Shown here in pieces: positions 2,227 to 64,000 of a stretch of DNA of 64,000 bases. Source of the stretch: Gemmiger sp. An194 (GTDB taxonomy: Bacteria > Bacillota > Clostridia > Oscillospirales > Ruminococcaceae); assembly GCF_002160145.1 (NCBI RefSeq), contig NZ_NFKA01000004.1:124001-188000 (forward strand). The letters are read 5' to 3'. The notes beneath the pieces are model-generated. The model was not told the DNA's origin. It searched no databases and worked only from the letters and a program-made list of their open reading frames with translations. The translations under genes were made by a program, and so were the position numbers. Numbering within the stretch: the stretch's first letter is position 1; each line of letters opens with the position of its first letter.

Positions 2227-2253
2227 TCAAAAACAGTTTCTCTGCTCCGGGAA

Positions 2254-3767: not shown

Positions 3768-3804
3768 GGTAGTTGTCCCCTTTCTTTTCTGTGGATCTGC
3801 AGTC

Positions 3805-4164: not shown

Positions 4165-4166
4165 CC

Positions 4167-4769
4167 TCAATACCCCAGCTTCTTCAGGAAGGAGCGACGG
4201 TAGAAGGGCTGAATGCCGTATTGCTGAATCAATTCATAATGCAGCTTGGTGGGATATCCCTTATGCTTTGCCAGCTGATACTGGGGATACTGCCGATCCA
4301 GCTCCAGCATGAACCGGTCCCGGCTGACCTTGGCCAGAATGGATGCCGCACCGATGCTGGCGCTGGTGGCATCGCCCTTCACCTGAGCTCCCGCCGGAAT
4401 CGAAAGCTCCGGCGGGACACGATTACCGTCCACCAGAACATATTCCGGCCGGATGGAAAGCTGCTCCACCGCCTGACGCATACCGTCCATAGTAGCCCAC
4501 AGGATGTTTTTCTCATCGATCACCGCAGGCTCCACCATCACAATGCTGTAGGCCAGCGCTTTTTCCAGAATCACATCAAACAGCTGCTCACGCTTTTTTT
4601 CACTGAGCTTTTTGGAGTCGTTGATCCCCTCGATGGGATTTTCCGGGTCCAGAATGACAGCTGCACAGCAAACCGGACCGCACAGCGGGCCACGGCCTGC
4701 CTCGTCCACACCACAGAAAACACCCTTTTCCCGGCGGAGCTGCTCGTCGAATTCATACAACGCGTTCAT
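4167..4769 (-). CDS. rnhB: ribonuclease HII
   Basis: RNase HII nicks RNA-DNA hybrids and single ribonucleotides in DNA. The 200-residue protein shows the [11 protein letters not shown] active-site segment near residue 22, then [12 protein letters not shown] and VLVDGN, in family order. The start MNALYEF fits the family; the open frame above lies within the end of rbgA. The start overlaps the rbgA stop by 4 bases. Together with yraN and rbgA this is a conserved Firmicutes gene order. Confidence 0.93.
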
Positions 4770-5674
4770 TCCTGCACCTCTTGCTCCTGGGCCTGCTCCA
4801 TCTGATAGGGTTTTTCCAGGGTGATGCGGCTCCACTTGCTGGCGCGGAACTCGTCCACCAGCATGATAGCCGCCCGCTCGGTGTTTACCTCGCCGCCGCT
4901 GATCAGCATGCCGCGCTTACGGCCGATGGCCTCCAGCAGTTCCCAGGGTCCCAGCTGCAGCTGCTCCTCGCTGAGCTTGTAACACTCGGCCAGCTTCTCC
5001 GGATAAATCTTCTGCATCTGACTAAGCAGGCCCATGGCCAGCTCTTCAATATCCAGAATGTCATCCTTGATGGAACCGATGAATGCCAGGTTTGTGGCAG
5101 TCTCCAGGCTGTCGAACTTTTTCCACAGCACACCGGGCATATCCAGCAGGTCGTAGTTGCCCACGGTAACCCACTGCTTGCCGCGGGTCACGCCCGGACG
5201 GTCTGCCGCCTTGGCGCGTACCTGGCCCGCAAAGTTATTGATAAAGGTGGACTTACCCACGTTGGGGATGCCTACCACCATGACCCGGATACGGGCGCCG
5301 CCCATGCCCTTGATGGCCCGGCGGGCAATCAGGTCCTCCAGTTCCTTTTCAATGGCGGTGCGCACCTGCGCGGCACTGCCCTTCTGCTTGGCACTGATGG
5401 CCACGCAGCCGGCGCCGGAAGCCCGGAAATACTTCACCCAGGCATTGGTCAGGGTCGGGTCCGCCAAATCCGCCTTGTTCATCACATACAGGCGAGGCTT
5501 CTGCTCGGTGATTCGCTGAATCTCCGGGTTCAGGCTGCTCATGGGAATGCGGGCATCCAGCAGCTGCAGAACCGCATCCACATTCTTGATATTTGCCTCC
5601 ATCAGCCGCAAGGTCTTCATCATGTGACCGGGGAACCACTGGATATTGCGGCGGTTGATCATATCGTTGCTCAT
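4766..5674 (-). CDS. rbgA: ribosome biogenesis GTPase RbgA/YlqF
   Basis: This is a circularly permuted GTPase that acts late in assembly of the large ribosomal subunit. The G motifs occur in permuted order: NKAD (G4) first, then the P-loop GIPNVGKST, then DMPG (G3). The N-terminal INWFPGHM-like segment is present as [10 protein letters not shown], and the C-terminal RNA-binding region follows. The ATG at 5674 has GGGAGG ahead of it and overlaps the lepB stop as ATGA, so translation is probably coupled. About 302 residues, normal for the family. Confidence 0.93.
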
Positions 5675-6210
5675 TCGATCCTCCCAAATGCGTTCAGCGG
5701 GAAGATGCGCCACAGCACCTTGCCCAGAATATCCCGTTCATCGATCAGGCCCACACTCACAAAGCGGCTGTCGGTGGAATGCTGCCGGTTATCACCCATC
5801 AGAAACAGCTGTCCCTCCGGCACCGTCAGCGGGAAGCCGATGTTGCCTTCAGTATAAGTGGGCTCGGCGGTATAGGGCTCGTCCAGGGCTTCGCCGTTTA
5901 CATACACGATACCCTGCTCTGCGTCGATATCCACCGTATCACCGCCCACGGCGATCACACGCTTAACCAGCGGTTTACCGTAATTGATGTAGCCATCCAC
6001 CACAACCACATCCCCACGCTGGGGTTTGTAAAAAGTGCTCTGCACCAGCAGACGGTCCTGCTCATGCAAGGTGGGCTCCATGGAATGGCCATCCACCACT
6101 ACGATTCGTGCGCAGAACGCAAAGATCAGAACCAGGGCGGCCAGCGCGAACACTAACGCGTCGTACCAGTCCAGCAGGTCCACATTTTTGCGGAAACGTT
6201 TTTCTTCCAT
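5671..6210 (-). CDS. lepB: signal peptidase I
   Basis: This membrane serine protease removes signal peptides from secreted proteins. One transmembrane helix lies near residues 18-37. It is followed by GHSMEPT with the catalytic serine, VKRVIAVGGD with the catalytic lysine and the MGDNRxxSxDSR box. The ATG at 6210 (MEEKRF) is preferred over one three codons upstream because GAGG is then properly spaced. At 179 residues it is the short Gram-positive type with a single anchor. It follows rplS across a terminator and leads into rbgA. Confidence 0.93.
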   Translation of the reverse strand: MEEKRFRKNVDLLDWYDALVFALAALVLIFAFCARIVVVDGHSMEPTLHEQDRLLVQSTFYKPQRGDVVVVDGYINYGKPLVKRVIAVGGDTVDIDAEQGIVYVNGEALDEPYTAEPTYTEGNIGFPLTVPEGQLFLMGDNRQHSTDSRFVSVGLIDERDILGKVLWRIFPLNAFGRIE

Positions 6211-6252
6211 TGGGTACATCCTCTTTCCAGGGATTTACAGAACGCATTTCAC

Positions 6253-6260
6253 ATTTTACC
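6253..6260 (-). promoter_or_regulatory. possible extended -10 promoter for lepB block
   Basis: TGGTAAAAT, read on the minus strand, is an extended -10 element about 43 bases ahead of lepB and just below the rplS terminator. No convincing -35 box is seen, so the call is tentative. Confidence 0.35.
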
Positions 6261-6268
6261 ATATAACG

Positions 6269-6301
6269 AAAAAAGGGGCAATATAAATTGCCCCTTTTTT
6301 G
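6269..6301 (-). terminator. bidirectional terminator after rplS
   Basis: The palindrome pairs AAAAAAGGGGCAAT with ATTGCCCCTTTTTT. Its A-run gives a U-tract to the minus-strand rplS transcript and its T-run does the same on the plus strand. Confidence 0.9.
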
Positions 6302-6308
6302 TCGATTA

Positions 6309-6650
6309 TCAGATCTGCTCCTTAACCTTGGCAGCCTTACCGGTGCGGCTACGCAGGTAGAACAGCTTCGCACGGCGAACCTTACCGCAGCGAACAACCT
6401 CAACCTTCTCAACGAAGGGGGAGTTCACGGGGAACACGCGCTCTACGCCAACGCCGTAGGAAGAACGGCGAACGGTGAAGGTCTCAGCCACGCCGCCATG
6501 CTTCTTGGCGATTACAGTGCCCTCGAAGGCCTGAATACGCTCACGCTCGCCTTCCTTGATGCGAACGGAAACGCGAACGGTGTCGCCAACTTCGAACTTG
6601 GGCTTGTTCTCTTTGATCATGCCCTCGGTGATAATCTTCATTGCGTCCAT
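6309..6650 (-). CDS. rplS: 50S ribosomal protein L19
   Basis: L19 sits at the interface of the ribosomal subunits. The 113-residue sequence shows the family core [16 protein letters not shown], the FEGTVIAKK loop and the basic C-terminal [11 protein letters not shown] segment. GGAGG stands 8 bases before the ATG at 6650; a start five codons earlier lacks such a site. It is transcribed alone, from a strong promoter at 6774-6802 through a leader of about 117 bases to a terminator at 6269-6301. Confidence 0.97.
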
Positions 6651-6767
6651 TGTAAAATCCTCCATTTTTATCGACGTTCGTACCCGTGCAATGGCCGCAC
6701 AGCAGAGGACCGCCTGTTTTAATGATATACATTAACCCCGCTGGTTGGAGCCAGCGAACACTAACGC
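6651..6767 (-). other. structured 5' leader of rplS
   Basis: The predicted rplS transcript has about 117 untranslated bases. Near its 5' end is a hairpin, CGCTGG-loop-CCAGCG, followed by a second GC-rich segment with GTGC/GCAC pairing. L19 leaders that act in autoregulation are known in Firmicutes, but I could not match this to a consensus by eye, so the regulatory role is inferred. Confidence 0.4.
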
Positions 6768-6773
6768 CTAAAT

Positions 6774-6802
6774 ATCATATCACAGCCTTGTGCGTTTTGC
6801 AA
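6774..6802 (-). promoter_or_regulatory. rplS promoter
   Basis: The -35 box TTGCAA (6797-6802) and the -10 box TATGAT (6774-6779) are separated by exactly 17 bp. This is a housekeeping-type promoter with transcription starting near 6767. Confidence 0.8.
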
Positions 6803-6809
6803 GGTCTTT

Positions 6810-7454
6810 TTATCGAAAATCCGTTTGATCTTCCAGCAAAAGTGCGGTACGCAGCACCGAAACATCGGTGGGGTTGAGTCCGCAGTGCTCCTGCATGAAA
6901 TTCAGCCAGAGCGAGGGATTCAGATTGTTTCCCTCTCCTGCAGTCAGAAGCAGTTCTGCCTGCAGTTCATTCTCCTTCTGTTCAGTCTCGATGCGGGGCA
7001 GCGCCTGCTTCAGGTCGATCTCCTTATGGCCGCGCTTGGTCTTTTTCTGAATGACCGCGCTCTCCAGCTGATTGTAGGCATCCACACTGGCTTGGGCACT
7101 CAGCGGCATGCGCAGCTGATAGCGCGCAAAACAGATTTTCTCTGCCTTGTACTTGGGAAGTGTGACCCGGGTCACCTTGATGCCCAGGGGCATCACCCGA
7201 TCCAGAGCCTGCCGCCAGTCTTCCAGGGGAACCTTCTCCAGCTCGGTTTTCACATCCACGCTTTCCACCAGGCTCTCCTGGCCCAGCGGCAAGGGGTTAG
7301 CAAAGGTCATATAGATATGGGGATTAAAGCCCATGGTATACCACACCGGAATGCCGCTGCGCTTGATGGAGCGCTGCATAACACGCTGCAGGTCCAGCAG
7401 CGAAATGTAGGAGGCCTCCCCTGTCTTAGTGAACCAGATCCTTACTGTAGTCAA
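6810..7454 (-). CDS. TIGR03936/DUF2344 radical SAM-associated protein
   Basis: The protein of about 214 residues begins RIWFTKTGEASYISLLDLQRV, a hallmark of the DUF2344 family encoded next to or fused with B12-binding radical SAM proteins. The function is not known; a role in tRNA or rRNA modification has been guessed from context elsewhere. No cysteine cluster is visible. I chose the TTG at 7454 because GGGAGG lies 8 bases upstream. It overlaps the radical SAM gene by 29 bases, a sign of tight coupling. Confidence 0.8.
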   Translation of the reverse strand: MTTVRIWFTKTGEASYISLLDLQRVMQRSIKRSGIPVWYTMGFNPHIYMTFANPLPLGQESLVESVDVKTELEKVPLEDWRQALDRVMPLGIKVTRVTLPKYKAEKICFARYQLRMPLSAQASVDAYNQLESAVIQKKTKRGHKEIDLKQALPRIETEQKENELQAELLLTAGEGNNLNPSLWLNFMQEHCGLNPTDVSVLRTALLLEDQTDFR

Positions 7455-9297
7455 AGCAGGCACCTCCCAACAGTTTATTTGCTCCGCAGGCACTGCATAC
7501 CCGATTGCAGGGCTGCGTGGTCTGCGCCATGGTAGCTTTCTTATATTCCCGCACCAGGAACTCGTGGCTTACACCGTAATCCAGATGACTCCAGGGAGTA
7601 AGCTCGTCCAGTTCGATGAACCGGTTGGCGTAGAAAGCGGTATCCATATTGAACTCCCGGAAGGTCTCCAGCCAGGTATCGTACTGGAAGCACTCATCCC
7701 AGCCGTCGAAGAAGCAGCCCTTGCGGTAAGCAGCCTCGATTACCGGAGCCAGACGGCGGTCGCCCTTGGCAAACACCGCCTCCAGAAAGCTGGTTTTGCT
7801 GTCGTGATAGTTCACATGAATCTTCTTGCTGTGAACGCTGTGCAGCAGGTGCTGCTGCTTTTCCCGCAGCATCTGCTCGGTATCCTGGGGAACGAACTGG
7901 AAGGGAGTGTGCGGCTTGGGCACGAAGCAGGCACAACTGATGGTCACCTGAACGCCGCGGCCCTTGGGCTTATTGGGGTTGGCGTAGTACAGCTCCACGA
8001 TCTGCTGAGCAGTTTTGGCAATCCCCTCAATGTCCTCCAGCGTCTCGGTGGGCAGACCCATCATGAAGTACAGCTTTACCGAGGTATAGCCTGCGTTGAA
8101 GGCCAGGGTGCAGCTCTTTTCGATCTCATCCCAGGTAATGTTCTTGTTGATTACATCACGCAGCCGCTGGGTACCTGCCTCCGGCGCAAAGGTCAGACCG
8201 CTCTTGCGCACCTTGGTGGTTTTCTCAATCAGGCTCTCGGTGAAGTTATCAATACGCAGCGAAGGCAGCGAAATGCTTACATGCTCTTTCTCAGTCCAGG
8301 GAGCCATGTCGTCCAGCAGGGTTTCCAGCTGGCTGTGGTCCGAAGTGGACAGACTGGTCAGGCTGATCTCTTCGTAGCCGGTGTTGGCGCACAGATCCTG
8401 CGCCGCCCGGTTGAGCAGCTGGGCATCCCGCTGGCGCATGGGCCGGTAAATGAAGCCCGCCTGGCAGAAACGGCAGCCTCGCACGCAGCCTCGCAGCACC
8501 TCGATCTGGGCACGGTCATGCACCGCACCTACCATGGGCACCACAAAGTTGGTGGGCAGCTTCTGGGTGTTCATATCCTTGATGATCGCCTTATGGATCA
8601 CCGCCGGGGCGCAGTCCTCATTGGGGGTGATAGCCTGGATGCGGCCATCCTCTTTGTAGCTCACATCGTAGAAGGAAGGCACATAGCAGCCTTCGATCTT
8701 GGCCAGACGGCGCAGAAGCTCCTTCTTGCTGATGCCCTCCTTCTTGGCCTGCTCCACAGTGGCGCACACCTCGGGCAGCTGCAGCTCACCCTCGCCCAGC
8801 ATCATCATATCGATGAAGTCGGCAATGGGCTCAGCGTTGCACACACAAGGACCACCGGCCACCACCAGAGGCCAGCTCTCGTCGCGGTCCTTGCTGTACA
8901 GCGGGATTCCCGCCAGATCCAGCATAGCCAGGATGTTGGTGTAGGACAGCTCGTACTGCAGGGTAAAGCCCACAATGTCAAATGCAGTCAGCGGGTCTTT
9001 GCTTTCCAGCGCGTAGGTGGGGATGTGCAGCCGCTCCATCTCCTGCTTCATGTCCAGCCAGGGCATGAAGGCGCGCTCGCACCACCAGTTGGGGCGCTCG
9101 TTCAGCAGCTCATACAGAATCTTCATGCCCAGAAAGGACATGCCCACCTCGTAGGTGTCCGGGAAGCAGAATGCAAACCGGAGGTCCACATCCTCTTTGT
9201 TTTTTATAATGCACCCGGGCTCGCCGCCGGTATAGCGGCCGGGCTTCTGTACCCGTGCCAGGGCCTCCTTCAATTTCGGATCAAACACTTGCTTCAT
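7426..9297 (-). CDS. TIGR03960 family B12-binding-type radical SAM protein
   Basis: The 623-residue enzyme starts with the RVQKPGRYTGGE signature typical of this family. A B12-binding-like Rossmann domain comes next, then the radical SAM motif CVRGCRFCQ (CxxxCxxC) near residue 275. A cysteine pair near the C-terminus (CNRVCSACG) may hold a second metal site. The substrate is unknown. The ATG at 9297 has its Shine-Dalgarno almost touching it, so a GTG three codons downstream (9288), spaced 9 bases from AAAGGA, may be the real start. The partner gene overlaps its end. Confidence 0.85.
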   Translation of the reverse strand: MKQVFDPKLKEALARVQKPGRYTGGEPGCIIKNKEDVDLRFAFCFPDTYEVGMSFLGMKILYELLNERPNWWCERAFMPWLDMKQEMERLHIPTYALESKDPLTAFDIVGFTLQYELSYTNILAMLDLAGIPLYSKDRDESWPLVVAGGPCVCNAEPIADFIDMMMLGEGELQLPEVCATVEQAKKEGISKKELLRRLAKIEGCYVPSFYDVSYKEDGRIQAITPNEDCAPAVIHKAIIKDMNTQKLPTNFVVPMVGAVHDRAQIEVLRGCVRGCRFCQAGFIYRPMRQRDAQLLNRAAQDLCANTGYEEISLTSLSTSDHSQLETLLDDMAPWTEKEHVSISLPSLRIDNFTESLIEKTTKVRKSGLTFAPEAGTQRLRDVINKNITWDEIEKSCTLAFNAGYTSVKLYFMMGLPTETLEDIEGIAKTAQQIVELYYANPNKPKGRGVQVTISCACFVPKPHTPFQFVPQDTEQMLREKQQHLLHSVHSKKIHVNYHDSKTSFLEAVFAKGDRRLAPVIEAAYRKGCFFDGWDECFQYDTWLETFREFNMDTAFYANRFIELDELTPWSHLDYGVSHEFLVREYKKATMAQTTQPCNRVCSACGANKLLGGACFDYSKDLVH

Positions 9298-54478: not shown

Positions 54479-54506
54479 TTGACTTTTCAAAAAAATGGAG
54501 TAAAAT
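54479..54506 (+). promoter_or_regulatory. tRNA-Ala promoter
   Basis: TTGACT (54479-54484) and TAAAAT (54501-54506) are spaced 16 bp apart, with transcription starting about 14 bases before the mature tRNA. Confidence 0.75.
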
Positions 54507-54526
54507 ATGAAAGGTAATCTTCATAC

Positions 54527-54602
54527 GGGCCTGTAGCTCAGTTGGGAGAGCGCTGCGTTCGCATCGCAGAGGTCAAGGGTTCGAATCCCTCCAGGTCCAC
54601 CA
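54527..54602 (+). tRNA. tRNA-Ala (anticodon CGC)
   Basis: The 76-base sequence folds into a full cloverleaf. The acceptor stem GGGCCTG/CAGGTCC includes the G3-U70 pair that marks alanine tRNAs. The D arm is GCTC...GAGC, the anticodon stem CTGCG/CGCAG has loop TTCGCAT, and the T arm contains GGTTCGAATCC. The anticodon CGC reads GCG. The 3' CCA is encoded. It has its own promoter and terminator. Confidence 0.97.
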
Positions 54603-54603
54603 G

Positions 54604-54638
54604 AAAACCCCCGATGCATTAGCATCCGGGGGTTTTAC
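54604..54638 (+). terminator. terminator of tRNA-Ala gene
   Basis: AAACCCCCGATGC pairs with GCATCCGGGGGTTT, with one bulged base, and ends in TTTTA. It begins one base after the encoded CCA. Confidence 0.85.
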
Positions 54639-54703
54639 TTATTCACTTTTTACTTACTCTCTTGCCACCTTCGCCACACTTTTTCAATATGCACAATATG
54701 CAC

Positions 54704-54736
54704 AAAAGCCGCAAAATCAGATGATTTTGCGGCTTT
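54704..54736 (-). terminator. terminator after lipoprotein gene
   Basis: A near-perfect palindrome, AAAGCCGCAAAATCA with TGATTTTGCGGCTTT, has a two-base centre and is followed by a short U-run on the minus strand. Confidence 0.75.
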
Positions 54737-54750
54737 GTTGTTATTGCATA

Positions 54751-55380
54751 TTATTTATCCTGCATCGAGAGAGTCACAGCAACATCTCCGTTTCCCAGCG
54801 CTTCCTGCCATCCGGCCAGGTCATCAATTTTGCCAAGCCGTGTATAACTCCAGGAGTTGGAGCCGTAGAAAATCACGATCTGACTTCCCTGATAGAGCAC
54901 AATATCACCGGCCTGGGTGGTCGTCTGGCTGTTCTCTGTGGGCAAACTCTGACCGAGGGAGCCCACCTTTTCAAAGCCGCCGTAATCACTCATCCGAATC
55001 GTAATGTCTCCGTCTGCCAGCAGCTCTTTCAAAGCCTGCGCACCGGAATTGTCGGCAAAGGTTGCAGAAAAAACTTTTTCTCCCACACTCACATAAAACG
55101 TATTTTGCTGCACGATGGCCTCTTCCTCACTTTCTTCATCGGAGGTTTCCTTCTCCACAGTAATGTCGGCATTTGTATTGTCCTCAACCGAAGAGGATTC
55201 ACTGTTGTTTTCAGTTGAACCACTGGTTTCACTCAGCTGCATATCCTCCGTCACCTGTTGAACATTGCTTTCCACAGCAGGAAGGCTGCCCACATCCGAC
55301 GCGGATGAGCCACCAAAGCCACAGGCAGTGAGCAAAGCCGCACACAGGCCCACCAGCAGAACGCACCCTGTTTTTTTCAT
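54751..55380 (-). CDS. lipoprotein with cyclophilin-like domain
   Basis: The 209-residue protein has a lipoprotein signal peptide ending in LLTAC (Cys20). A low-complexity, Ser/Glu-rich stalk runs to about residue 90, and a domain (about 93-205) resembles the cyclophilin-like fold family, with ALKELLADGDITIRMSDYGGFEKVGSLG and DIVLYQGSQIVIFYG. Members are small beta-barrel proteins often found near flavoproteins and oxidoreductases; the activity is unknown. It follows the flavoprotein gene and ends in its own terminator. GGGGGAGG precedes the ATG. Confidence 0.75.
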   Translation of the reverse strand: MKKTGCVLLVGLCAALLTACGFGGSSASDVGSLPAVESNVQQVTEDMQLSETSGSTENNSESSSVEDNTNADITVEKETSDEESEEEAIVQQNTFYVSVGEKVFSATFADNSGAQALKELLADGDITIRMSDYGGFEKVGSLGQSLPTENSQTTTQAGDIVLYQGSQIVIFYGSNSWSYTRLGKIDDLAGWQEALGNGDVAVTLSMQDK

Positions 55381-55458
55381 GAAACCTCCCCCTTGTTTGT
55401 TAAATACGGTCAGGAAGACTTATTTCAGCTGCAGCCCGAATTGCCGCAGTTCCTCCAG

Positions 55459-55941
55459 CTATGCCTCTGACTTGTTCTCTTTGTCAAAAGCGGAGAAAAT
55501 ACCCATGTCCTCCAGCTTCAGATAGTTTAAAAAGGAGTTCTGGTACTCGTAGATGGCACCACAGTAGACATGGTTGCTGCCGGAGCTCATGATCAGGGCA
55601 GCTTTTTTGAGGTTTTTCGGCTTATCCAAAGCGTAGATACGATTGATGGCACACTGCAGCTGACCCGTGAAGCTGTGATAGTAAATGGGTGACGCCAATA
55701 CGATCATCTCGGCTTCCTGAAGCAGAGGGTAAACCTGTTGCATGTCATCCTGCTGAATGCACCGGCCATCGCCCTTGGTATGGCAATACTCACAGGCCAG
55801 GCAGCCGGCAATTTTCTTTTGACAGATACTGACCACCTCTACCCGATGGCCACTTTGCTGTGCCCCCTTTGCAAAGGCATTGACCATGGAGGCAGTGTTG
55901 CCGTTTGCCCGGGGACTCCCATTCAGGACTAAAATATTCAC
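55459..55941 (-). CDS. flavodoxin-like NAD(P)H:FMN oxidoreductase, early amber stop
   Basis: The protein of about 160 residues starts NILVLNGSPRANGNTASMV, the FMN phosphate loop of iron-sulfur flavoprotein/NADPH-dependent FMN reductases. It has a CLACEYC motif that could bind a cluster, and the SPIYYHSFTGQLQ segment. A TAG at 55459-55461 ends it. The same frame then reads LEELRQFGLQLK before TAA at 55420, which looks like the normal C-terminal helix. GTG at 55941 is chosen for its spacing from GGGAG. It follows the alcohol dehydrogenase. Confidence 0.8.
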   Translation of the reverse strand: MNILVLNGSPRANGNTASMVNAFAKGAQQSGHRVEVVSICQKKIAGCLACEYCHTKGDGRCIQQDDMQQVYPLLQEAEMIVLASPIYYHSFTGQLQCAINRIYALDKPKNLKKAALIMSSGSNHVYCGAIYEYQNSFLNYLKLEDMGIFSAFDKENKSEA

Positions 55942-55957
55942 GGGCACTCTCTCCCTT

Positions 55958-57126
55958 TTACTGCATGCTCTCCTTCACAATGCGAACAACGTCTTCACGG
56001 CTCAGCACCTTGTAGCCGCCTTGCAGAAGGAAGGTGCCCTGGGCGATTCCATCCAGCATCTCCTCTGTGACACCCAGCTCTCTTGCGTTCATCACCAGCC
56101 CGATTTCCCGCATCCATGCTTCCATGGCGGAAAGGCCTTCTGCGGCAATCTGCTCGTCGTTTTTGCCTTCCGGGTTCACATCCCATACATTCACCGCAAA
56201 GCGCTTGAACTTTTGCAGGCCATAGGGCATGATAAACCGATAATACGGAATGGACACTGAGGAGAGCGTCATTCCGTGCGTGGCATTGGTATAAGCCCCG
56301 ATGGACTGGCCGATCATATGCACTTCCCAGTCGGTGGATTTTCCTTTGGCTACAAAGGTATTCAGTGCCCAGGTTGCGATCCACATGATATTGCTGCGTG
56401 CTTCGTAATCGGTGGGATTCTTGACCGCAATGCGGGAACTGTGGATCAGAGAGCGCAGCAGTCCTTCCATCACATAGTCGGAAGTGTTGTCGTCCTCGCC
56501 GGAGAAATACTGCTCCAGAATGTGGCTCATGATATCAAAGAAACCGGCCACCATCTGCTCTTTCGGGAGAGTGAAGGTGTACACAGGATTCAGAATGGAG
56601 AATCGAGGCATGACATTTTCGCCGAACACGTGGCCGATCTTCAGCTTCTGAGTCGGATTTGTGATGACCGACCCGCCGTTCATTTCCGATCCGGTGCCCA
56701 CCATCGTTAGCACACAGCCCACCGAGATGATTTCGTTATCCACATCTTCCATGCGCAGATAGTATTTTTCCCAAGGATCTTCCTCGCAATGGGTGGACAC
56801 CGAAACCGCTTTGGCGTAATCACAAACAGAACCGCCGCCAACCGCGAGGATCAGATCCACCTTGCCTTCCTGTGCTCTCCGCAGCCTTCATACAGCTTTT
56901 CTACGGTGGGGTTGGGCATTACGCCGCTGTCCTCTACAACCGTCTTGCCGCATTCCTTGAGGATCGCCATGACATCATCATAGATACCGTTTTTCTTGAT
57001 GGAACCGCCGCCGTAAACCAGCAGCACATTCTGACCATACTTCGGCAGCTCCTGATAGAGCCCTTTCAGGGCGTCTTCGCCAAAATACAGCTTAGTCGGG
57101 TTGCAATATGTGAAATTCCCCAACAT
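55958..57126 (-). pseudogene. iron-containing alcohol dehydrogenase, frameshifted
   Basis: Two frames make one YqhD/BdhA-like enzyme. The first (56851-57126) gives the N-terminus LGNFTYCNPTKLYFGEDAL to VEKLYEGC. The second (55958-56860) gives VDLILAVGGGSVCDYAKA to the end, with the metal ligands in FFDIMSHILEQ, EVHMIGQ and ATHGMTLS all intact. After TGC at 56881-56883 one C appears to be missing: restoring it gives YEGC-RRAQEGKVD across the join and about 390 residues, the usual length. It may be a true recent null mutation or a sequencing error. It lies in the hydrolase operon; AGGAGG precedes the ATG. Confidence 0.85.
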
Positions 57127-57141
57127 AATCTATTCCTCCTG

Positions 57142-58086
57142 TTATTTCAGAGTGCTTTTGAGAAACGCCTCAATCTTATCAAAGGGAATACGGTCTGTGC
57201 GGTCATACAAATCGATATGCTCTGCATCTTCCACCACATACAGCTCCTTGGGCTCCTGCGCCTTGGCGTATGCCTCTTCGCTGAAGAAGCGGGAGTGTGC
57301 CCGGTCACCCACCACAAACAGAATGGGGCGGGGGCTAATTTCATCCAGGTAGCTAAGCAGATCAAAGTTGATCAGGGGAATATTGCTGGTGGTGGTGAAG
57401 CCGCCCCGTGCACGCACATGATGCCCTCTTTTGACAGCATAGAACCGGAACCACTCGGCAGTAGGCTCCTCCAAGCCTTCGGGCACCTTTTCCATGGGGG
57501 TCTCCGGGAAGAACGGGATATATTCGGGCATATATCCATTTTCGGCATCCTTCCAGCGCTGCGCCGCCAGAGCCTGCTTAGCCGCCAGAATCTGTTCTTG
57601 CGACTGACCCAATCGGGCAGCTACGCTCATATCATACATGCTGGTGGTGATCACCGCACGGATACGGGTATCCACCTGAGTGGCTGCCAGCGCAAAACCG
57701 CCGCTGCCACAAATGCCCAGAACGGCAATTTTCCCCCGGTCCACAAAGGGCTGAAGGCCCAGGAAATCCACGCCTGCGCTAAAGTTTTCGGTGAACATCT
57801 CCGGGGACGACACATGCCGGGGCTCACCCCCGCTCTCGCCCATATAGCAGGGGTCAAAGGTCAGCACGACAAAGCCTCTTTGGGCCAGCTCGTTGGCGTA
57901 GACGCAAGGCCCCTGCTCTTTGACGCCGCCATAGGGCGCGCCTACGATCAACGCCATCTGAGGCTTCGTTTTGTCCATATCCTTTGCAGTGTACAAATCA
58001 CCGGCCAGCATCAGGCCATATCGATTGGGATAGCGTACATGGGTTCGCTCCACATTCTCACTCAAAGCATGAATATACTCGCTCAT
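57142..58086 (-). CDS. alpha/beta hydrolase, dienelactone hydrolase-like
   Basis: The 314-residue protein has an alpha/beta-hydrolase fold with GAPYGGVKEQ (oxyanion region), the nucleophile elbow GICGSGG where Cys replaces the usual Ser, and a late DAEHIDLYD supplying histidine. A Cys nucleophile recalls dienelactone hydrolases and the YcjY group. The substrate is unknown. The ATG at 58086 has AAAGGAG 7 bases ahead. It is the second clear gene of the LysR-linked operon and leads into the alcohol dehydrogenase. Confidence 0.85.
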   Translation of the reverse strand: MSEYIHALSENVERTHVRYPNRYGLMLAGDLYTAKDMDKTKPQMALIVGAPYGGVKEQGPCVYANELAQRGFVVLTFDPCYMGESGGEPRHVSSPEMFTENFSAGVDFLGLQPFVDRGKIAVLGICGSGGFALAATQVDTRIRAVITTSMYDMSVAARLGQSQEQILAAKQALAAQRWKDAENGYMPEYIPFFPETPMEKVPEGLEEPTAEWFRFYAVKRGHHVRARGGFTTTSNIPLINFDLLSYLDEISPRPILFVVGDRAHSRFFSEEAYAKAQEPKELYVVEDAEHIDLYDRTDRIPFDKIEAFLKSTLK

Positions 58087-58152
58087 TGTTTTTCTCCTTT
58101 CATGTGACAAATGCATCATATTGTTCAGCCTGCTGCATTGGAAGGATTTGAT

Positions 58153-58386
58153 TCAATGCTTTTCTTCCTTCTCAATTTGATAAACCAGATAGTCCAGGCA
58201 TTGAATCTGCTTTTCCTCCCGATGGACCCGCTCCAGCAGGCCTTCTCGCTTTTGCGCCAGCAGCCGAAGCTGTTCCTTCGTTTTTCCTGCTTTCCAGCAA
58301 TCCAGAAACTCCTGGAGCAATGCGCCGTCAACCCCCGCGGCCTTTAAATTGATAATCAAATCCTGTTCCGTAATGGTATGGACCAT
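58153..58386 (-). CDS. small helical protein of unknown function
   Basis: The 77-residue product (MVHTITEQDLIINLKAAGVD...) is predicted to be all helical: a short UBA-like segment (AGVDGALLQEFLDCWKAGK) followed by a charged helix that ends DYLVYQIEKEEKH. Similar short proteins are common beside oxidoreductase and hydrolase genes in Clostridia, and the helix resembles the end of MerR-type proteins, but no DNA-binding domain is present. The start at 58386 has GGGAG 10 bases upstream. I do not recognise a function. Confidence 0.6.
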   Translation of the reverse strand: MVHTITEQDLIINLKAAGVDGALLQEFLDCWKAGKTKEQLRLLAQKREGLLERVHREEKQIQCLDYLVYQIEKEEKH

Positions 58387-58471
58387 ACACCTTACGCTCC
58401 CTCTTGATTTCTGCGCCGGTAACGATGGCAATCGTTTCTTTGTGTACCGGGAAAAACCTGACGTTTGCCAT
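58328..58471 (-). CDS. possible leader reading frame of the hydrolase operon
   Basis: A 47-codon frame (MANVRFFPVHKETIAIVTG...) begins just after the predicted transcription start, with AAAGGG ahead of its ATG. It overlaps the start of the 77-residue gene in another frame, so its translation could control that gene. It shows no known family and may not be a real protein. Confidence 0.3.
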   Translation of the reverse strand: MANVRFFPVHKETIAIVTGAEIKRERKVYGPYHYGTGFDYQFKGRGG

Positions 58472-58486
58472 TTCTTTCCCTTTTTC

Positions 58487-58533
58487 ATTATAGTTGCGAG
58501 AAAAACTCATATCAAATACTTATCATTAATGCA
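58487..58533 (-). promoter_or_regulatory. hydrolase operon promoter and LysR-type operator
   Basis: TTGATA (58510-58515), 17 bp and TATAAT (58487-58492) form the promoter. The 25-bp element at 58509-58533, over the -35 box, matches the element at 62643-62667 at 22 positions, with the same strand and spacing. Confidence 0.75.
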
Positions 58534-58648
58534 CCTGCATAGCAAAAAACTATTTAAGTTTTATGTCACAAAGCCCACATCCTTCCGCGCTATTAAGCGC
58601 CCCCTGCTCCACGGATGCCGCGACGGAAAGGAAAAAGAACTCTCTCGC

Positions 58649-58701
58649 AAAAACACCTGTGCCCCCGGCTGGAGCCTCCGCCGGGGACACAGGTGTTTTT
58701 T
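58649..58701 (-). terminator. bidirectional terminator after GH3 gene
   Basis: AACACCTGTGCCCCCGGC and GCCGGGGACACAGGTGTT form a long stem with an A-run on one side and a T-run on the other. It ends the SDR-GH3 transcript on the minus strand. Confidence 0.9.
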
Positions 58702-58743
58702 ATTTCTTTCTTCCACAAATCAGAGAGGACCGTTTTTCAAGAC

Positions 58744-61700
58744 TCAGACCTTGGTTTTGCTCTTTTTGCGCCAGCGCACAATCACAATGGCTTCCACCGC
58801 TGCCACTGCGGCAAGGATGCCTGCATCAATGGCAATGAAGGTCTTCACCATGGGGCTGAGGCCGGTACCGGAGGCACTGCGGGTATAGGCGCCGCTGTTC
58901 ACAGTGGTGAAGAAGATATTCTTCGCCGCCTGACGCATCGCCTTTACCAGGGTGGCAGAATCCCGGTCGGTCAGCTGATTGGATTCGTGCTGCAAAAAGC
59001 CCAGCATCAGATCGCCGCCGCCCCGCACCACATCGTCGGTGAGCTGGTAGCCATAGGAGCCATCCCAGTCGGTGAGCACCATACCCTGGAAGCCCCACTC
59101 GTCCCGCAGCACATCGTTGAGCAGGTCGGGATTGGCGCCGCAGTATACATCGCCGATGAAGTTGAAGGAGGTCATCACTGCCATGGGATATCCGGCAGCA
59201 GCGCCGCCCATGTCCCGGTTTGCCTTCACGCATATCTCAAACGGCTTCATGTAGATCTCCCGGATGGCCTGTTCGTCGGAATAGGTCAGCAGGAAGGAGC
59301 AGCGGTTGGTCTCCTGATCGTTGAGGACAAAGTGCTTGATGTAGGCATAGATCCCGTTGCTGGTGCCGCCGTTTACCATGGCGGACGCCATATAGCCGCC
59401 CAGCACGCCGTCCTCGGAATAATACTCAAAGTTGCGGCCGCAGAAGGCGTTGCGGTGGGTGTTCATGCCCGGGCCGTACCAGCCCCAGATCTCACAATCG
59501 GCAAACTCCGCGCCCAGCGCCTCGCCAGTGCGGTAGGTCAGCTCGGTGTTCCAGGTCTGGCAGATCAGCACTGCCGTGGGGAACGAGGTTCCAAATACGC
59601 CGATATACCAGTCGTTCAGTCCAGTGCCGCCGTCGGAGTCCATGGTCTGCACCTTGCCCACCGACTTCATGGCCACCGTCTGGAAGCCGCCCAGATTTAC
59701 CAGGTTGAACATTTCATCGAAAGTCAGCTGATCCAGAAGCTCCTCCCACTGCGGGTCATCGTAGGCTTTGCCGGTAAAATCCGCCAGGCTCAAGCCATTG
59801 TTGGCACCAGTAACGGGCATTTCGTCATTCGGATCGTCGTACCGTGTGGGATCATAATAGGCCACGGATTTTTTCGTAATGCGGGCCAGAGTATCCGCAT
59901 CCATGGCATAGGTTTCTTGTGCGGGAGCTGCCGTCGCCTGGGCATAGTTGGCAAAGCCGTCTGCGCGGGAAAGGTAGGTCACGTTGCCTGCGGAATAGTC
60001 CTGAAACTGATTGGTAGGCACAGCGCTGTCAGACGGACGGCCGCTTACACTGTAATCCACATCGCTCTCCACCGTAAAGGTCACACTGTCCAGCACGATG
60101 TGGGAATCCGAGCGGATGGACAGTACATACTCCCCTGCCTTCAGCACATAGCCGCCATTGGCTGTTTTGATGCAGCCGGAATCATAAGAGGCGAAATCCT
60201 CCTTGTCGATGGTGAAGCTGACCGTCTCGGACGCGCCCGGCTCCAGCTGGGCGGTCTTTGCGAACTGCACCAGATTGACCGAAGCCTTTTCAATGCCGCC
60301 GTTGGTGTAAGGCGGTGTGAAATAAACCTCCACCACGTCCTTACCGGCCACATCGCCAGTGTTGGTTACGTTGACTGTGAGAGACACGGTATCCCCATTG
60401 TCGGAAAACTCCGTGATCTCCTGAGCAAAGCTGGTATAGCTCAGACCGTAGCCGAAGGGATACTGAACCGCGGCATCGTAATCAATCAGACCTTCCTCTG
60501 CGGCCGTTTCGTAGAATTTATAGCCCACATAAATACCTTCCACATAATTGACGAAGGCAATCACGCCCTGATAGGCGGGGTCCGCCTGGGTGAGGGCGGC
60601 GCGTAGATCGTCCACATTGTTATAGGTGAAGCTGCCGAAGTTATTGTACCAGGGTGTCTGCTTCACGTCGTACACATAGGTATCCACCGTGCGGCCGGAG
60701 GGATTCACTGAGCCGTTCAAAATCTCGCCCAGCGCAGACATGCCGCTCTCGCCGGTGCCGGGAGCCAGAATGACGGCACCAATCTGGGGGTACTGCTCCA
60801 CCCAGCCCAGCTCCATGGTGTTGTTGGCATTGATCACCACCACAACCTTGTCAAAGGCGGAGCAGACCGTTTCGATCATGGCCTCTTCGGTGTTGCTCAG
60901 CTCCAGGTAGCTCTCGCCCGGGTCGAAGTCATCGTATTCCGTGCTGTTGTTGGTGTAGTTACAGTTGGTGTAATTGTAGTTCTCGTTGCCGTTCGCCACG
61001 GCATCCCGCAGGTCGTAGGTACCGTGGATGATGGCATTCATATCAGTGGGGAGGTCCTGCCCTTCGCCTCCGGAACGGGAGATGACAATCATCGCCGTAT
61101 CGGAAAATTCCTGCGCGTTGGCCATCAGTTCATCGGTATAATATTCTACCGGCGGCTCCGGCAGCGACCAGTCGGTATAGGTAACGCTTACCACATTACC
61201 GCCCAGGTTGCGGGTGGGGCTGTATTCAGTGTACATGTCGATGATTTCCTGATTGTAGGAAATGCCGGCGTCGGTCAGCGATTGCAGAATTCCCACAGAG
61301 GAACTGTTATCCGAAGAGCCGGAACCGGTACCGCCGAAGATTGGATTGGTGGACGCCCAGCCGAACACATTCAGATTGGTAGTATCAGCCAGCGGCAAAA
61401 CGCCGTTGTTCTCCAGAAGGACCATGCCTTCCTCACCGACTTCACTGATCACCGCTTTGCTGTTTGCAATCGACCCCTCGCTCACCTGGGCTCGGGTGTT
61501 CATGATGGGCGAAAGATTGTTGTAAAGCGGCCCAAAGCACATGATGTTGGCGATGATCGCCACGGCCAGAACCCAGGCGAGTGCTGCGCTCCAGCGTACC
61601 ACATGACGCGTTCCCTTTTTTACCAGGAAATGGGCGGCCACCATGATTGCAACAGCCGCTGCCAACAGACCAATAATGGTGTAAATATAGCCGCTGAGCA

Positions 61701-61785
61701 TGTTCACATAGGTCTGCACGTCGGTTGTGCTGACGCCCATTGATGTGAAGATCGGAGTCAGCAGATCAATCAGCAGTTGAATCAC
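58744..61785 (-). CDS. membrane-anchored GH3 glycosidase, permuted domains
   Basis: The 1013-residue protein has two N-terminal membrane helices (about 33-57 and 67-88) and one C-terminal helix (about 980-1004). Between them the usual GH3 order is swapped: the C-terminal sandwich domain (about 110-450) and a fibronectin-like domain (about 480-560) come first, and the barrel follows (about 680-960), with KHFVLNDQETNR and the nucleophile Asp906 in VLTDWDG. Permuted GH3 beta-glucosidases are known from Ruminococcus and Butyrivibrio. The start is a GTG 8 bases after AGGAGG. It follows the SDR gene, from the LysR-linked promoter. Confidence 0.88.
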   Translation of the reverse strand: MIQLLIDLLTPIFTSMGVSTTDVQTYVNMLSGYIYTIIGLLAAAVAIMVAAHFLVKKGTRHVVRWSAALAWVLAVAIIANIMCFGPLYNNLSPIMNTRAQVSEGSIANSKAVISEVGEEGMVLLENNGVLPLADTTNLNVFGWASTNPIFGGTGSGSSDNSSSVGILQSLTDAGISYNQEIIDMYTEYSPTRNLGGNVVSVTYTDWSLPEPPVEYYTDELMANAQEFSDTAMIVISRSGGEGQDLPTDMNAIIHGTYDLRDAVANGNENYNYTNCNYTNNSTEYDDFDPGESYLELSNTEEAMIETVCSAFDKVVVVINANNTMELGWVEQYPQIGAVILAPGTGESGMSALGEILNGSVNPSGRTVDTYVYDVKQTPWYNNFGSFTYNNVDDLRAALTQADPAYQGVIAFVNYVEGIYVGYKFYETAAEEGLIDYDAAVQYPFGYGLSYTSFAQEITEFSDNGDTVSLTVNVTNTGDVAGKDVVEVYFTPPYTNGGIEKASVNLVQFAKTAQLEPGASETVSFTIDKEDFASYDSGCIKTANGGYVLKAGEYVLSIRSDSHIVLDSVTFTVESDVDYSVSGRPSDSAVPTNQFQDYSAGNVTYLSRADGFANYAQATAAPAQETYAMDADTLARITKKSVAYYDPTRYDDPNDEMPVTGANNGLSLADFTGKAYDDPQWEELLDQLTFDEMFNLVNLGGFQTVAMKSVGKVQTMDSDGGTGLNDWYIGVFGTSFPTAVLICQTWNTELTYRTGEALGAEFADCEIWGWYGPGMNTHRNAFCGRNFEYYSEDGVLGGYMASAMVNGGTSNGIYAYIKHFVLNDQETNRCSFLLTYSDEQAIREIYMKPFEICVKANRDMGGAAAGYPMAVMTSFNFIGDVYCGANPDLLNDVLRDEWGFQGMVLTDWDGSYGYQLTDDVVRGGGDLMLGFLQHESNQLTDRDSATLVKAMRQAAKNIFFTTVNSGAYTRSASGTGLSPMVKTFIAIDAGILAAVAAVEAIVIVRWRKKSKTKV

Positions 61786-61811
61786 TCAAATCGCCTCCTC
61801 TTTTTCGTTGC

Positions 61812-62582
61812 TCACAGGAATGCACCGTTGCACACCTGAATGACCTGGCCCTTGACATGACGGCCCATCTTGCTGGCCAGGAACAGGCAGGCGTAGGCCT
61901 GATCCATGGGGTCGCACTCCGGGCCGGGGAAATACACGAAATGCCCGCTGTGCTCCAGCATCTTTGCCCCGCCGGGCTGTTCCCCGGCCTTGTTGGCAAT
62001 GTGAGCCGGGGTCACCGTGGCACCGGGGGCTACCGCATTGCACCGGATGTTGGTATCAATGAGCCGCATGGCCACATTCTTGGTCAGGGTGTTCAGCGCG
62101 CCCTTGGTGGAAGTATAGGTGGCTCCGCAGAAGGGGCGCTCGCCGTTCACCGAGGAAATGTTGATAATGACGCCGTCATTTTTCGGCATAAAGATTTTCA
62201 AAGCTTCCCGGATATACCGCATGGGGCCGCCCAGGTTCGTATTCATCACATACAGCATCCAGTCATCATCGGTCTCGTCAATCATCTTCTGTTCACCGAT
62301 TCCCGCGTTGTTGATAAGGATATCCACATCCCCAAACTCGCGCAGGGCGGTCTCAAACACCCGCTGTGTATCCTCGGTAGAGCAGACATCCGCCACTACA
62401 CCCACTGCGCGGCCGCCTTTGGCGCGAATGCCCTGCACCACCTCATCCAGCTTTTCCTGCCCTCTGGCCGTAAGCACTACGGCAGCGCCTTCCTCGGCAA
62501 ACAACTCTGCCATGGTCTGACCCATACCATAACTGGCGCCGGTAATGATGGCTACCTTTCCTTTCAACATTTCCTTTTCCAA
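61812..62582 (-). CDS. short-chain dehydrogenase/reductase
   Basis: This classical SDR of 256 residues has the cofactor loop GASYGMGQ, NNAG, the catalytic serine in INISSVNGE and the YTSTK (YxxxK) pair. The arginine in VVLTARGQEK after the second strand suggests NADP(H). It would reduce or oxidise an alcohol or carbonyl of unknown identity. The start is a TTG 8 bases after AGGAGG. It is the first gene behind the LysR-linked promoter, with GH3 following. Confidence 0.9.
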   Translation of the reverse strand: MEKEMLKGKVAIITGASYGMGQTMAELFAEEGAAVVLTARGQEKLDEVVQGIRAKGGRAVGVVADVCSTEDTQRVFETALREFGDVDILINNAGIGEQKMIDETDDDWMLYVMNTNLGGPMRYIREALKIFMPKNDGVIINISSVNGERPFCGATYTSTKGALNTLTKNVAMRLIDTNIRCNAVAPGATVTPAHIANKAGEQPGGAKMLEHSGHFVYFPGPECDPMDQAYACLFLASKMGRHVKGQVIQVCNGAFL

Positions 62583-62620
62583 TACAACAACCTCCTTTGT
62601 TGGTCCTGATCTCTGGCTTC

Positions 62621-62667
62621 ATTATAAAGCGGCAGAAATGCTATATCAAATACTTATATTTGATGCA
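62621..62667 (-). promoter_or_regulatory. SDR-GH3 promoter and LysR-type operator
   Basis: TTGATA (62644-62649), 17 bp and TATAAT (62621-62626) form the promoter. Over the -35 box lies the perfect inverted repeat ATCAAATA-N4-TATTTGAT (62645-62664), within the 25-bp element shared with 58509-58533. Confidence 0.8.
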
Positions 62668-62674
62668 TTTTCAT

Positions 62675-62705
62675 AATTGAAAATTATAGAATTTTCAATT
62701 ATACT
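62675..62705 (+). promoter_or_regulatory. lysR promoter with perfect palindrome
   Basis: TTGAAA (62677-62682), 17 bp and TATACT (62700-62705) make the plus-strand promoter. It is covered by the inverted repeat AATTGAAAATT-N4-AATTTTCAATT (62675-62700), a likely autoregulatory site that differs in sequence from the other operator. Confidence 0.7.
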
Positions 62706-62725
62706 GGAACCAGGAGGTGGTGAAC

Positions 62726-63628
62726 ATGGAGCTTCGCGTGCTGCAATACTTTTTGGCGGTAGCCCGGGAACAGAATATTTCCTCGGCTGCAGAATCGCTG
62801 CATCTTTCTCAGCCTACCCTTTCCACCCAATTAAAGGCGCTGGAAAACGAGCTGGGCAAGCAGCTGCTGATTCGTGGAACCAAGGGTTCCCGCAAGGTGC
62901 TGCTGACCGAGGAGGGCATGCTGCTGCGCAAACGGGCGGAGGAGATTCTGGAGCTGGTACGGATGACGGAAAGCGAGATTTCCCTGTCCAACGAAGTGGT
63001 TGCCGGAGACGTGTACATCGGTACCGGTGAATCGGACCTGATTCGTATCTTCGCAAGAGCCGCCAAACACATTCAGGAAAAACATCCGGACATCCACTAC
63101 CATATTCTCAGCGGAAACGCAGCCTTTGTGCAGGAACATCTGGACCGGGGACTGATCGATTTCGGCGTGGTTTACAGCCCGGTGGATACCAGCATCTACA
63201 ATACCATCAAGATCCCCGTTCACGATACCTGGGGCGTTTTGATGCGCCGGGATTCCCCACTGGCACAAAAGGATGCTGTGCAGCCTCAGGACCTGCTGGA
63301 TAAGCCGCTGATTCTTTCCGCCCAGAAAGCCGATGCCTGGCCCATGTCCAACTGGTTCGGGCAGGACATTTCAAAGCTGAATGTGGTGGCCACCTACAAT
63401 CTGGTGTTCAATGCCTCGCTGCTGGTAGAGGAAGGACTTGGGTATGCGGTCTGCTTTGATAAGCTGATCAATGTGAGTGGAGACAGCAACCTTTGTTTCC
63501 GCCCTCTCTCCCCCACGATCGAAGCCAAGGCCTCCATTATCTGGAAGCGTTATCAGGTTCTGTCCAAGGCTGCCGAATGCTTTTTAAACGAACTGCAGCA
63601 GGAAATGGAACTGCTTACTGACCTGTAA
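62726..63628 (+). CDS. LysR family transcriptional regulator
   Basis: The 300-residue protein has an N-terminal winged helix (about 1-60) with NISSAAESLHLSQPTLSTQLKALE, the LysR recognition segment, a linker helix and a periplasmic-binding-like effector domain (about 90-295). AGGAGG lies 8 bases before the ATG at 62726. It is divergent from the SDR-GH3 operon, the usual place for a LysR activator. Two related operators in front of both minus-strand operons suggest that it controls them. The effector is unknown. Confidence 0.93.
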   Translation: MELRVLQYFLAVAREQNISSAAESLHLSQPTLSTQLKALENELGKQLLIRGTKGSRKVLLTEEGMLLRKRAEEILELVRMTESEISLSNEVVAGDVYIGTGESDLIRIFARAAKHIQEKHPDIHYHILSGNAAFVQEHLDRGLIDFGVVYSPVDTSIYNTIKIPVHDTWGVLMRRDSPLAQKDAVQPQDLLDKPLILSAQKADAWPMSNWFGQDISKLNVVATYNLVFNASLLVEEGLGYAVCFDKLINVSGDSNLCFRPLSPTIEAKASIIWKRYQVLSKAAECFLNELQQEMELLTDL

Positions 63629-63633
63629 CAAAC

Positions 63634-63680
63634 AAAAATGCCTGTGCCCGGAAGAAAACCGCCGGGCACAGGCATTTTTA
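63634..63680. terminator. bidirectional terminator between lysR and AKR genes
   Basis: AAAAATGCCTGTGCCCGG and CCGGGCACAGGCATTTTT form an 18-bp stem that serves both convergent genes. Confidence 0.92.
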
Positions 63681-63699
63681 TTGATCGTTCCGGAAATGC

Positions 63700-64000
63700 T
63701 CAGCCGAAATAGGAGGCAATCTCCTGCATGCGGGCCATCTGATCCACCCGAAAGGGACAGCGGCTGTTGCAATGACCGCACTGCACGCAGTCCTCTGCAC
63801 CCTGCTCCAGACCGCGGTAATGCTCAGCAGCCATGGAATCTCCGTTTCGAGCCAGATCATAATACTTGTTCACCAAACCCACATCGATCCCCATCGGACA
63901 GGGTTTGCAGTGGTTGCAGTAAACGCATTTGCCCACCGCATCCGCCGGGCTGAAGGAGCCGATCATGGAGTAGTCCCGCTCCTGCTGGGAAGCATTGAAA
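63700..64000 (-). CDS. aldo/keto reductase, C-terminal ferredoxin part (partial)
   Basis: Only the last 99 codons are in the window; the frame runs off the right edge. The fragment has two cluster motifs, CVYCNHCKPCP and CVQCGHCNSRCP, and the preceding NASQQERDYSMIGSF, which is how aldo/keto reductases with a C-terminal 4Fe-4S domain end. The full enzyme would have about 370 residues and reduce an aldehyde or ketone with NADPH. It is convergent with lysR. Its promoter is outside the window, so membership of the regulon cannot be judged. Confidence 0.8.
   Translation of the reverse strand, partial: FNASQQERDYSMIGSFSPADAVGKCVYCNHCKPCPMGIDVGLVNKYYDLARNGDSMAAEHYRGLEQGAEDCVQCGHCNSRCPFRVDQMARMQEIASYFG

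Follow-up and report, generated by a model that had tools for sequence, protein, structure and literature searches.

A LysR-type regulator predicted to control two operons through two-box operators in Gemmiger sp. An194

The stretch of DNA analysed here, referred to as the window, comprises 64,000 nucleotides of Gemmiger sp. An194 (assembly GCF_002160145.1, contig NZ_NFKA01000004.1, positions 124,001 to 188,000) and encodes a LysR-type regulator at 62726-63628. As judged from sequence comparisons, this LysR very probably regulates a small regulon through two operators, A and B, and controls two operons together. The first operon encodes a short-chain dehydrogenase/reductase (SDR) and a glycoside hydrolase family 3 (GH3) glycosidase, the second one a small protein, a hydrolase, an Fe-containing alcohol dehydrogenase (Fe-ADH), a flavin mononucleotide (FMN) reductase and a cyclophilin-like lipoprotein. 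The operator copies are rare, they are linked to orthologs of the regulator and they recur before the same genes, which makes one regulator a strong prediction. An earlier note on this DNA had proposed one LysR regulator for both operons, and this is supported by comparative genomics, i.e., by the ortholog-linked operator and by the recurring gene set. The regulator gene, the predicted promoters and the operator boxes are located as follows:

62726-63628, plus strand: gene of the LysR-type regulator, 300 residues, start ATG at 62726, protein beginning MELRVL; PF00126 (E 5.3e-21) and PF03466 (E 3.1e-25)
62621-62649, minus strand: predicted promoter of the SDR-GH3 operon, TTGATA-N17-TATAAT, 11 of 12 matches
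58487-58515, minus strand: predicted promoter of the second operon, TTGATA-N17-TATAAT, 11 of 12 matches
62677-62705, plus strand: predicted LysR promoter, TTGAAA-N17-TATACT, 10 of 12 matches
62643-62657, plus strand: operator A box 1, ATAT-CAAATAC-TTAT, overlapping the SDR promoter at its -35 and centred at about -36
62673-62687, plus strand: operator A box 2, ATAA-TTGAAAA-TTAT (ATAATTGAAAATTAT), overlapping the -35 of the LysR promoter, at about -66 from the SDR start
58509-58523, plus strand: operator B box 1, ATAT-CAAATAC-TTAT, overlapping the -35 of the second operon
58539-58553, plus strand: operator B box 2, ATAG-CAAAAAA-CTAT (ATAGCAAAAAACTAT), a LysR box of symmetric form that contains no -35

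Two predicted promoters share a two-box operator

The two TTGATA-N17-TATAAT promoters, which had been described as lying on the same strand, are found on the minus strand (62649-62621 and 58515-58487) and constitute the top two sigma-70 matches in 54500-64000, a region that contains nine promoter-like sites in all, close to the 6.8 expected on average by chance. The 25-bp elements at 58509-58533 and 62643-62667, which share 22 of 25 bases and occupy the same place on both promoters, had been reported correctly to the base, and the LysR gene adjoins the latter copy as stated. The next-best match to the 25-mer on either strand of the window reaches 17 of 25 bases, and a 20-mer allowing up to three mismatches has two matches in the window versus 0.01 expected. 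In the whole 3.07-Mb genome, TATCAAATACTTATNNTTNATGCA with up to three mismatches has exactly two matches, operators A and B, while the reversed-pattern control has none. The many unrelated copies that the earlier note had named as speaking against a common regulator were thus not seen.

The shared bases of the 25-bp element are real, but its extent has to be revised, as the conserved unit appears, from the comparison with relatives, to be a longer LysR operator that has two boxes and spans about 45 bp, in which the spacing from box 1 to box 2 is exactly equal in A and B. A position matrix was built from 61 non-redundant LysR-adjacent sites, for which reason the scores of the LysR-adjacent sites of those loci are high by construction. 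It shows two conserved blocks, ATA[G/T]-CAAATAC-TTAT (columns -4 to +10) and ATAG-N7-CTAT (+26 to +40), each being a T-N11-A LysR box, with block centres 30 bp apart. The strongly conserved AT at +16/+17 may represent a third half-site. Operator B reaches a whole-operator matrix score of 30.2, and in the window it is matched by the operator profile R1 at E 1.5e-5 (21.6 bits). If transcription is assumed to start 7 bases after the -10, the box centres lie at about -36 and -66 at both predicted promoters.

The inverted repeat that had been pointed out in the second copy, ATCAAATA-N4-TATTTGAT, is indeed perfect, with two arms of 8 bp, at 62645-62664 and it is present in copy A only, but it is not the symmetry conserved among relatives. 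This palindrome was rejected as operator because columns +13 to +15, i.e., the middle of its right arm, and column -1 are poorly conserved there. A further perfect inverted repeat of 13 bp with a 4-base gap, at 62673-62702, extends over the core promoter of LysR, starting ahead of the -35 and reaching into the -10.

The operator is linked to one LysR ortholog group

The ortholog set comprised 80 loci with LysR relatives at 59-80% identity (the best 80 of 578). The core CAAATACTTATNNTTNAT, allowing up to three mismatches, is found within 200 bases upstream of LysR in 64 of the 80 loci, and in 2.3% of 1,600 shuffled upstream regions. In a test graded by similarity, 27 of 30 LysR loci were used, leaving out L023, in which LysR lies in two frames, and L024 and L026, in which the contig ends. 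LysR proteins of at least 52% identity show an upstream score of at least 25 in 14 of 17 cases, and in a fifteenth (L010) the site lies elsewhere in the locus; none of ten paralogs of at most 46% identity reaches a score of 15 upstream, the best being 13.3. Among 32 family genomes, the operator (E ≤0.001) was detected in nine of the 11 with a LysR ortholog (E ≤1e-90) versus one of the 21 without, namely G034 (Fisher p 2e-5), with cut-offs that were picked after the searches. The matrix score cut-offs likewise vary by analysis (13, 15, 19, 25) and were set after the data had been seen. The graded test, together with the paralog region in the same genome that is devoid of the operator, suggests that the operator is tied to this LysR group and not to LysR proteins at large.

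Both domains of the regulator are above the Pfam cut-off, PF00126 (HTH_1) with 74.8 bits and PF03466 (LysR_substrate) with 89.2 bits, while none of the 25 NCBIfam families listed (of 51 matching) reaches its cut-off, the best being CidR with 127.1 of 415 bits. The cysteine of an LCFR motif is present in 73 of the 80 orthologs by automatic match and in three more by eye; three others carry T or V and one sequence is cut short. As it is missing in some relatives, it is not an absolute requirement.

Stand-alone operators precede a recurring gene set

To find second sites, the 80 ortholog loci and the window were scanned at a score of at least 19 with the -35 columns left out of the matrix. LysR-adjacent sites numbered 71, in 69 loci plus the window, and a further 26 sites were distributed over 23 loci plus the window, while random sequence of the same length (1.06 Mb) and composition gives about 0.5 sites at scores of 14-18 and none at 20. 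When the 900 bp on the distal side of each of the 26 non-adjacent sites were searched for a LysR gene by tblastn, 21 sites proved to stand alone, namely 20 sites in 18 loci and operator B of the window. Four of the 26 face LysR, either their own one, which is further off (L056, at 509 bp, and L070), or a second one (L084, L112), and the site in L081 is cut off by the contig end after 120 bases. L175 and L112 carry an identical site and are possibly duplicate records. The LysR-adjacent operator is also present in 15 of the 18 stand-alone loci, as it is in the window.

A -35/-10 pair with at least nine of 12 matches is fused to box 1 in 22 of the 26 non-adjacent sites (spacing 16-17) and in 56 of the 71 LysR-adjacent ones (spacing 17-18). 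The G at column +32, which belongs to the TTGA of the LysR -35, is found in 60 of the 71 LysR-adjacent sites versus five of the 26 others. In operator B, which has no adjoining LysR gene, the arms of the boxes are kept and the LysR -35 is lost, and the second sites are generally alike. This is as expected if the protein reads the arms and RNA polymerase reads the TTGA.

The small protein that heads the second operon was found in 55 of 148 family genomes by alignment search. In 25 of the 30 small-protein loci returned, a properly oriented operator (score at least 15) is located no more than 1.5 kb upstream; 19 of these operators are common to a divergent LysR and six stand alone. Three genomes with stand-alone small-protein operators are outside the genus, of which G160 and G126 encode an ortholog of LysR at another location and G069 shows none at E 1e-40. 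The operator profile matched one or two sites per genome in 25 of the 100 family genomes searched. Among the 28 loci returned, 18 have the site facing LysR (including L236 and L248, which are LysR-divergent) and nine stand alone at a matrix score above 20; L247 (genome G034, score 8.0) was not counted among the latter. Eight of these nine operators head genes of the same set, i.e., cyclophilin-like lipoproteins (two), the small protein with a DUF3737-like gene, DUF3737, a hydrolase, a hexapeptide acetyltransferase, such an acetyltransferase followed by an Fe-ADH, and an FMN reductase, and the operator in L244 has no clear downstream gene. The hydrolase in L246 is 39% identical to that of the window and the FMN reductase in L253 is 33% identical over 102 residues, the Fe-ADH stands behind the operator in L038, L066 and L133 and as second gene in L252, and the cyclophilin-like lipoprotein does so in L236, L250 and L254. 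Every gene type of the second operon thus occurs behind such an operator elsewhere, which supports the reading that one regulator serves both operons.

In the species G001, G002 and G004 of the same genus, the operator stands in front of the small protein and of a DUF3737-like gene, which was recognized by eye, on a contig other than that of LysR, and in G003 it lies between an intact Fe-ADH and LysR, which is itself in two frames. In Gemmiger sp. An194 a DUF3737 gene is located behind a similar site at G000:C45:121060 (G000 being the own genome), and it is likely to be a third target of the LysR.

The fourth profile match in the own genome, at G000:C49:102539 (18.0 bits), was rejected as operator, as it consists of box 1 only and shows no -10 by eye. 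It belongs to a stretch of about 140 bp of seemingly non-coding DNA with a box 1-like sequence, which looks almost the same in L165 (this match), L162, L163 and L164 from four species of the genus. This stretch adjoins a match to the Rfam small RNA SpF59 in both loci scanned (L162 and L165).

In L045 the LysR-divergent operon (2228-7919) encodes a choloylglycine hydrolase/AAT-like protein, an AMP-binding protein, an ABC ATPase and an FtsX permease. Judged by length alone, four like genes in this order are found in L044, L060, L067, L101 and L105, and the same lengths except for the AMP-binding gene in L050, L091, L096 and L106.

Several observations weigh against joint control by this LysR. 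The core is lacking at up to three mismatches in 16 of the 80 LysR loci, L017 and L018 have no good upstream site with relatives at 52-53% identity, and five of the 30 small-protein loci are without a good site. Conversely, G034, whose best LysR is 42% identical, has a partial operator match (L247) before a small-protein homolog. Operator B is weaker than A (21.6 versus 41.6 bits) and its spacer differs. Moreover, no hydrolase match at E 1e-50 is seen in G001, G002 and G004, and in the latter two GH3 is reduced to about 180 residues; these differences among species of the same genus indicate that the exact target set changes fast.

Proposed mode of regulation and alternatives

According to the proposed model, the LysR would bind the two-box operator A at its own divergent promoter and the stand-alone operator B, about 4.1 kb away, and would place the SDR-GH3 operon and the operon running from the small protein to the cyclophilin-like lipoprotein under common control. 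Box 2 (about -66) would serve as the high-affinity recognition site and, because it covers the -35 of LysR in operator A, probably also as the site of autorepression. Box 1 (about -36) would be the place where an inducer-bound LysR tetramer contacts RNA polymerase and activates both operons; activation is favoured because the -36/-66 geometry is like that of OccR (-33/-64). The set of Fe-ADH, SDR, FMN reductase, hydrolase and acetyltransferase suggests a function in handling reactive carbonyls or other electrophiles, and carbonyl or electrophile stress as the signal, which would place the inducer in this class, is a guess from the gene content. A broader proposal, which is quite unlikely as it stands, assumes a widespread and undescribed regulon for carbonyl/electrophile stress in gut Clostridia. 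Its LysR would sense a reactive carbonyl originating from the diet or the host, and the small protein would be a MerR-like dimerisation helix that lacks the DNA-binding domain and serves as sensor or co-regulator in this circuit.

It is somewhat unlikely that the same LysR mainly represses both operons by competing with RNA polymerase at the -35 in box 1 until an inducer relieves this repression. The overlap of box 1 with the -35 would fit such a mechanism, as would the near-consensus promoters (11 of 12 matches), which would suit strong promoters that are repressible. However, most LysR proteins activate divergent targets. The -66/-36 arrangement of the boxes also argues for activation by analogy, as it matches OccR, which is described as inducer-responsive at its target operon (PMC5002191).

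Binding of another regulator, e.g., a paralog of this LysR, to site B or to both sites appears very unlikely. Such a paralog, 40% identical, is encoded 2.4 kb beyond the regulator gene (G000:C34:190064-190915), and the non-adjacent sites in L084 and L112 face a second LysR gene, but the region of the paralog (L129) contains no operator at a score of at least 12, all ten paralogs tested score below 15 upstream, and sites A and B are alike in both boxes, in their spacing and in the promoter fusion. The likeness of A and B could finally stem from nothing more than the strong promoter that they have in common, or from a local duplication of recent date, without any common regulator, since both elements sit on identical -35/-10 hexamers and agree in nine of ten bases around the -10. 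The identity is, however, distributed otherwise than this would predict, with 10 of 10 bases at columns 0 to +9 and six or seven of ten across +10 to +49, but two of ten in the promoter spacer and two or three of ten at the outer ends. As box 2 moreover lies outside the promoter with conserved arms, and as the design recurs in other operon orders, this explanation is extremely improbable.

The genes of the two operons and the small protein

The genes and the element separating the operons are arranged as follows:

61812-62582, minus strand: SDR oxidoreductase, 256 residues, PF00106 (E 2.7e-50)
58744-61785, minus strand: GH3 glycosidase with permuted domain order, 1013 residues, PF01915 at 121-422, PF14310 at 483-561, PF00933 at 731-907
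58649-58700, no strand assigned: inverted repeat ending in a T run between the operons, inverted self-match of 91% over 52 bp
58153-58386, minus strand: small helical protein, 77 residues, first gene of the second operon, homologs in 50 of the 80 LysR loci
57142-58119, minus strand: alpha/beta hydrolase, PF12697 (E 1.2e-5), longest open reading frame, true start possibly further in
55958-57126, minus strand: Fe-ADH in two frames (56851-57126 and 55958-56860), PF00465 and PF25137
55459-55947, minus strand: NADPH-dependent FMN reductase/flavodoxin-like protein, PF03358 (E 9.2e-24)
54751-55380, minus strand: cyclophilin-like lipoprotein, final gene of the second operon, PF18050 (E 1.2e-25), lipoprotein signal read by eye

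SDR (minus strand) and LysR (plus strand) diverge over the common intergenic stretch 62583-62725, and SDR is followed by GH3 on the same strand after 26 bp. In L045, L069 and L088 the SDR is 91-93% identical, where LysR is merely 64-78% identical, which could reflect either unusually strong constraint or recent transfer. In GH3 both Pfam domains, Glyco_hydro_3 and Glyco_hydro_3_C, are above the cut-off in reversed order, the C-terminal domain being ahead of the N-terminal one, and its hydrophobic ends, read by eye, suggest that it is membrane-anchored. In the sister species G002 and G004, only the first 180 or so residues of GH3 are left after SDR. The inverted repeat at 58649-58700 is likely a terminator that separates SDR-GH3 from the second operon, as suggested by its form; it is absent from the output of a separate terminator scan of the window region. 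A hairpin at 54705-54736 lies downstream of the cyclophilin-like lipoprotein gene. The frame split of the Fe-ADH may equally be a real mutation or an assembly error, and its homologs in L133 (391 residues) and L038 are unbroken in one frame each.

The model of the small protein (predicted local distance difference test, pLDDT, 94) consists of three helices, two of them short and one of 41 residues. No Pfam match is obtained for the protein of the window up to E 0.1; among 26 members a single one matches PF09278 (MerR-DNA-bind, E 0.017), and the profile matches the MerR protein 3gpv with E 0.046, ranked below several designed helical proteins. The best fold match is to 5d90 (HiNmlR, chain residues 42-120), with a Foldseek E of 3.1, which is not significant, a VIA Z of 7.3 and 77 residues aligned at a root-mean-square deviation of 4.2. 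As helical models yield such matches by chance, the kinship to MerR is merely suggestive. Just past the window (G000:C34:189600-190915, L129), the 40% identical LysR paralog adjoins a distant homolog of the small protein, so that the pairing of genes is repeated there without the operator.

Comparison with known systems

No description of this LysR regulon was found in the open-licence literature, while its arrangement is classical and the proposed mechanism is that of a textbook LysR. The analysis provides a precise operator, consisting of two boxes 30 bp apart, and a list of targets for a LysR that is common to many Clostridia, including, by the titles of the records, Lachnospiraceae and Oscillospiraceae. 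Among the loci with the operator are those of Blautia schinkii DSM 10518 (L046), with one operator, and of Lachnospiraceae bacterium strain X68 (L075), with three. The analysis links genes without an assigned role, namely those of the small protein, of DUF3737 and of the cyclophilin-like lipoprotein, into one predicted circuit, and the inducer, if found, would reveal a stress or substrate that these bacteria meet.

CidR, AlsR, HcaR and OxyR belong to the LysR family too, but the LysR of the window is far below their NCBIfam cut-offs (AlsR 96 of 430 bits). By LysR sequence the top solved match is BenM (E 5.9e-15), tied with CysB. Sites of the BenM/CatM type have the form ATAC-N7-GTAT; the box geometry is the same here, but the letters of the half-sites differ and the similarity is low. 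Unlike in BenM/CatM systems, no aromatic catabolism genes were seen among the operons read.

YqhC of E. coli is an AraC-type protein, and since the regulator described here is a LysR, it differs in family from that of a YqhC-type aldehyde regulon. The larger Fe-ADH piece matches PRK15138, the YqhD model, with 173.5 bits, below the cut-off of 645. The systems are alike in that here, too, a regulator would switch on an Fe-ADH, as is described for the YqhC-YqhD aldehyde response (PMC8262776).

A close parallel in layout is that of OccR. In PMC5002191, a LysR-type operator is described as two or three T-N11-A inverted repeats with conserved spacing, and OccR as binding inverted repeats centred at -33 and -64, the distal one with greatest affinity. 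Two T-N11-A boxes are found in operators A and B as well as in the family matrix. The system resembles OccR and the gammaproteobacterial set of that source in the divergent gene, in the T-N11-A repeats about 30 bp apart and in the predicted position of the proximal box at -35 and of the distal one at about -65. In contrast to these, it involves another LysR group and gene set, it is found in Clostridia, the spacer of box 1 is the nearly fixed CAAATAC, and the -35 of the target promoter lies inside the box.

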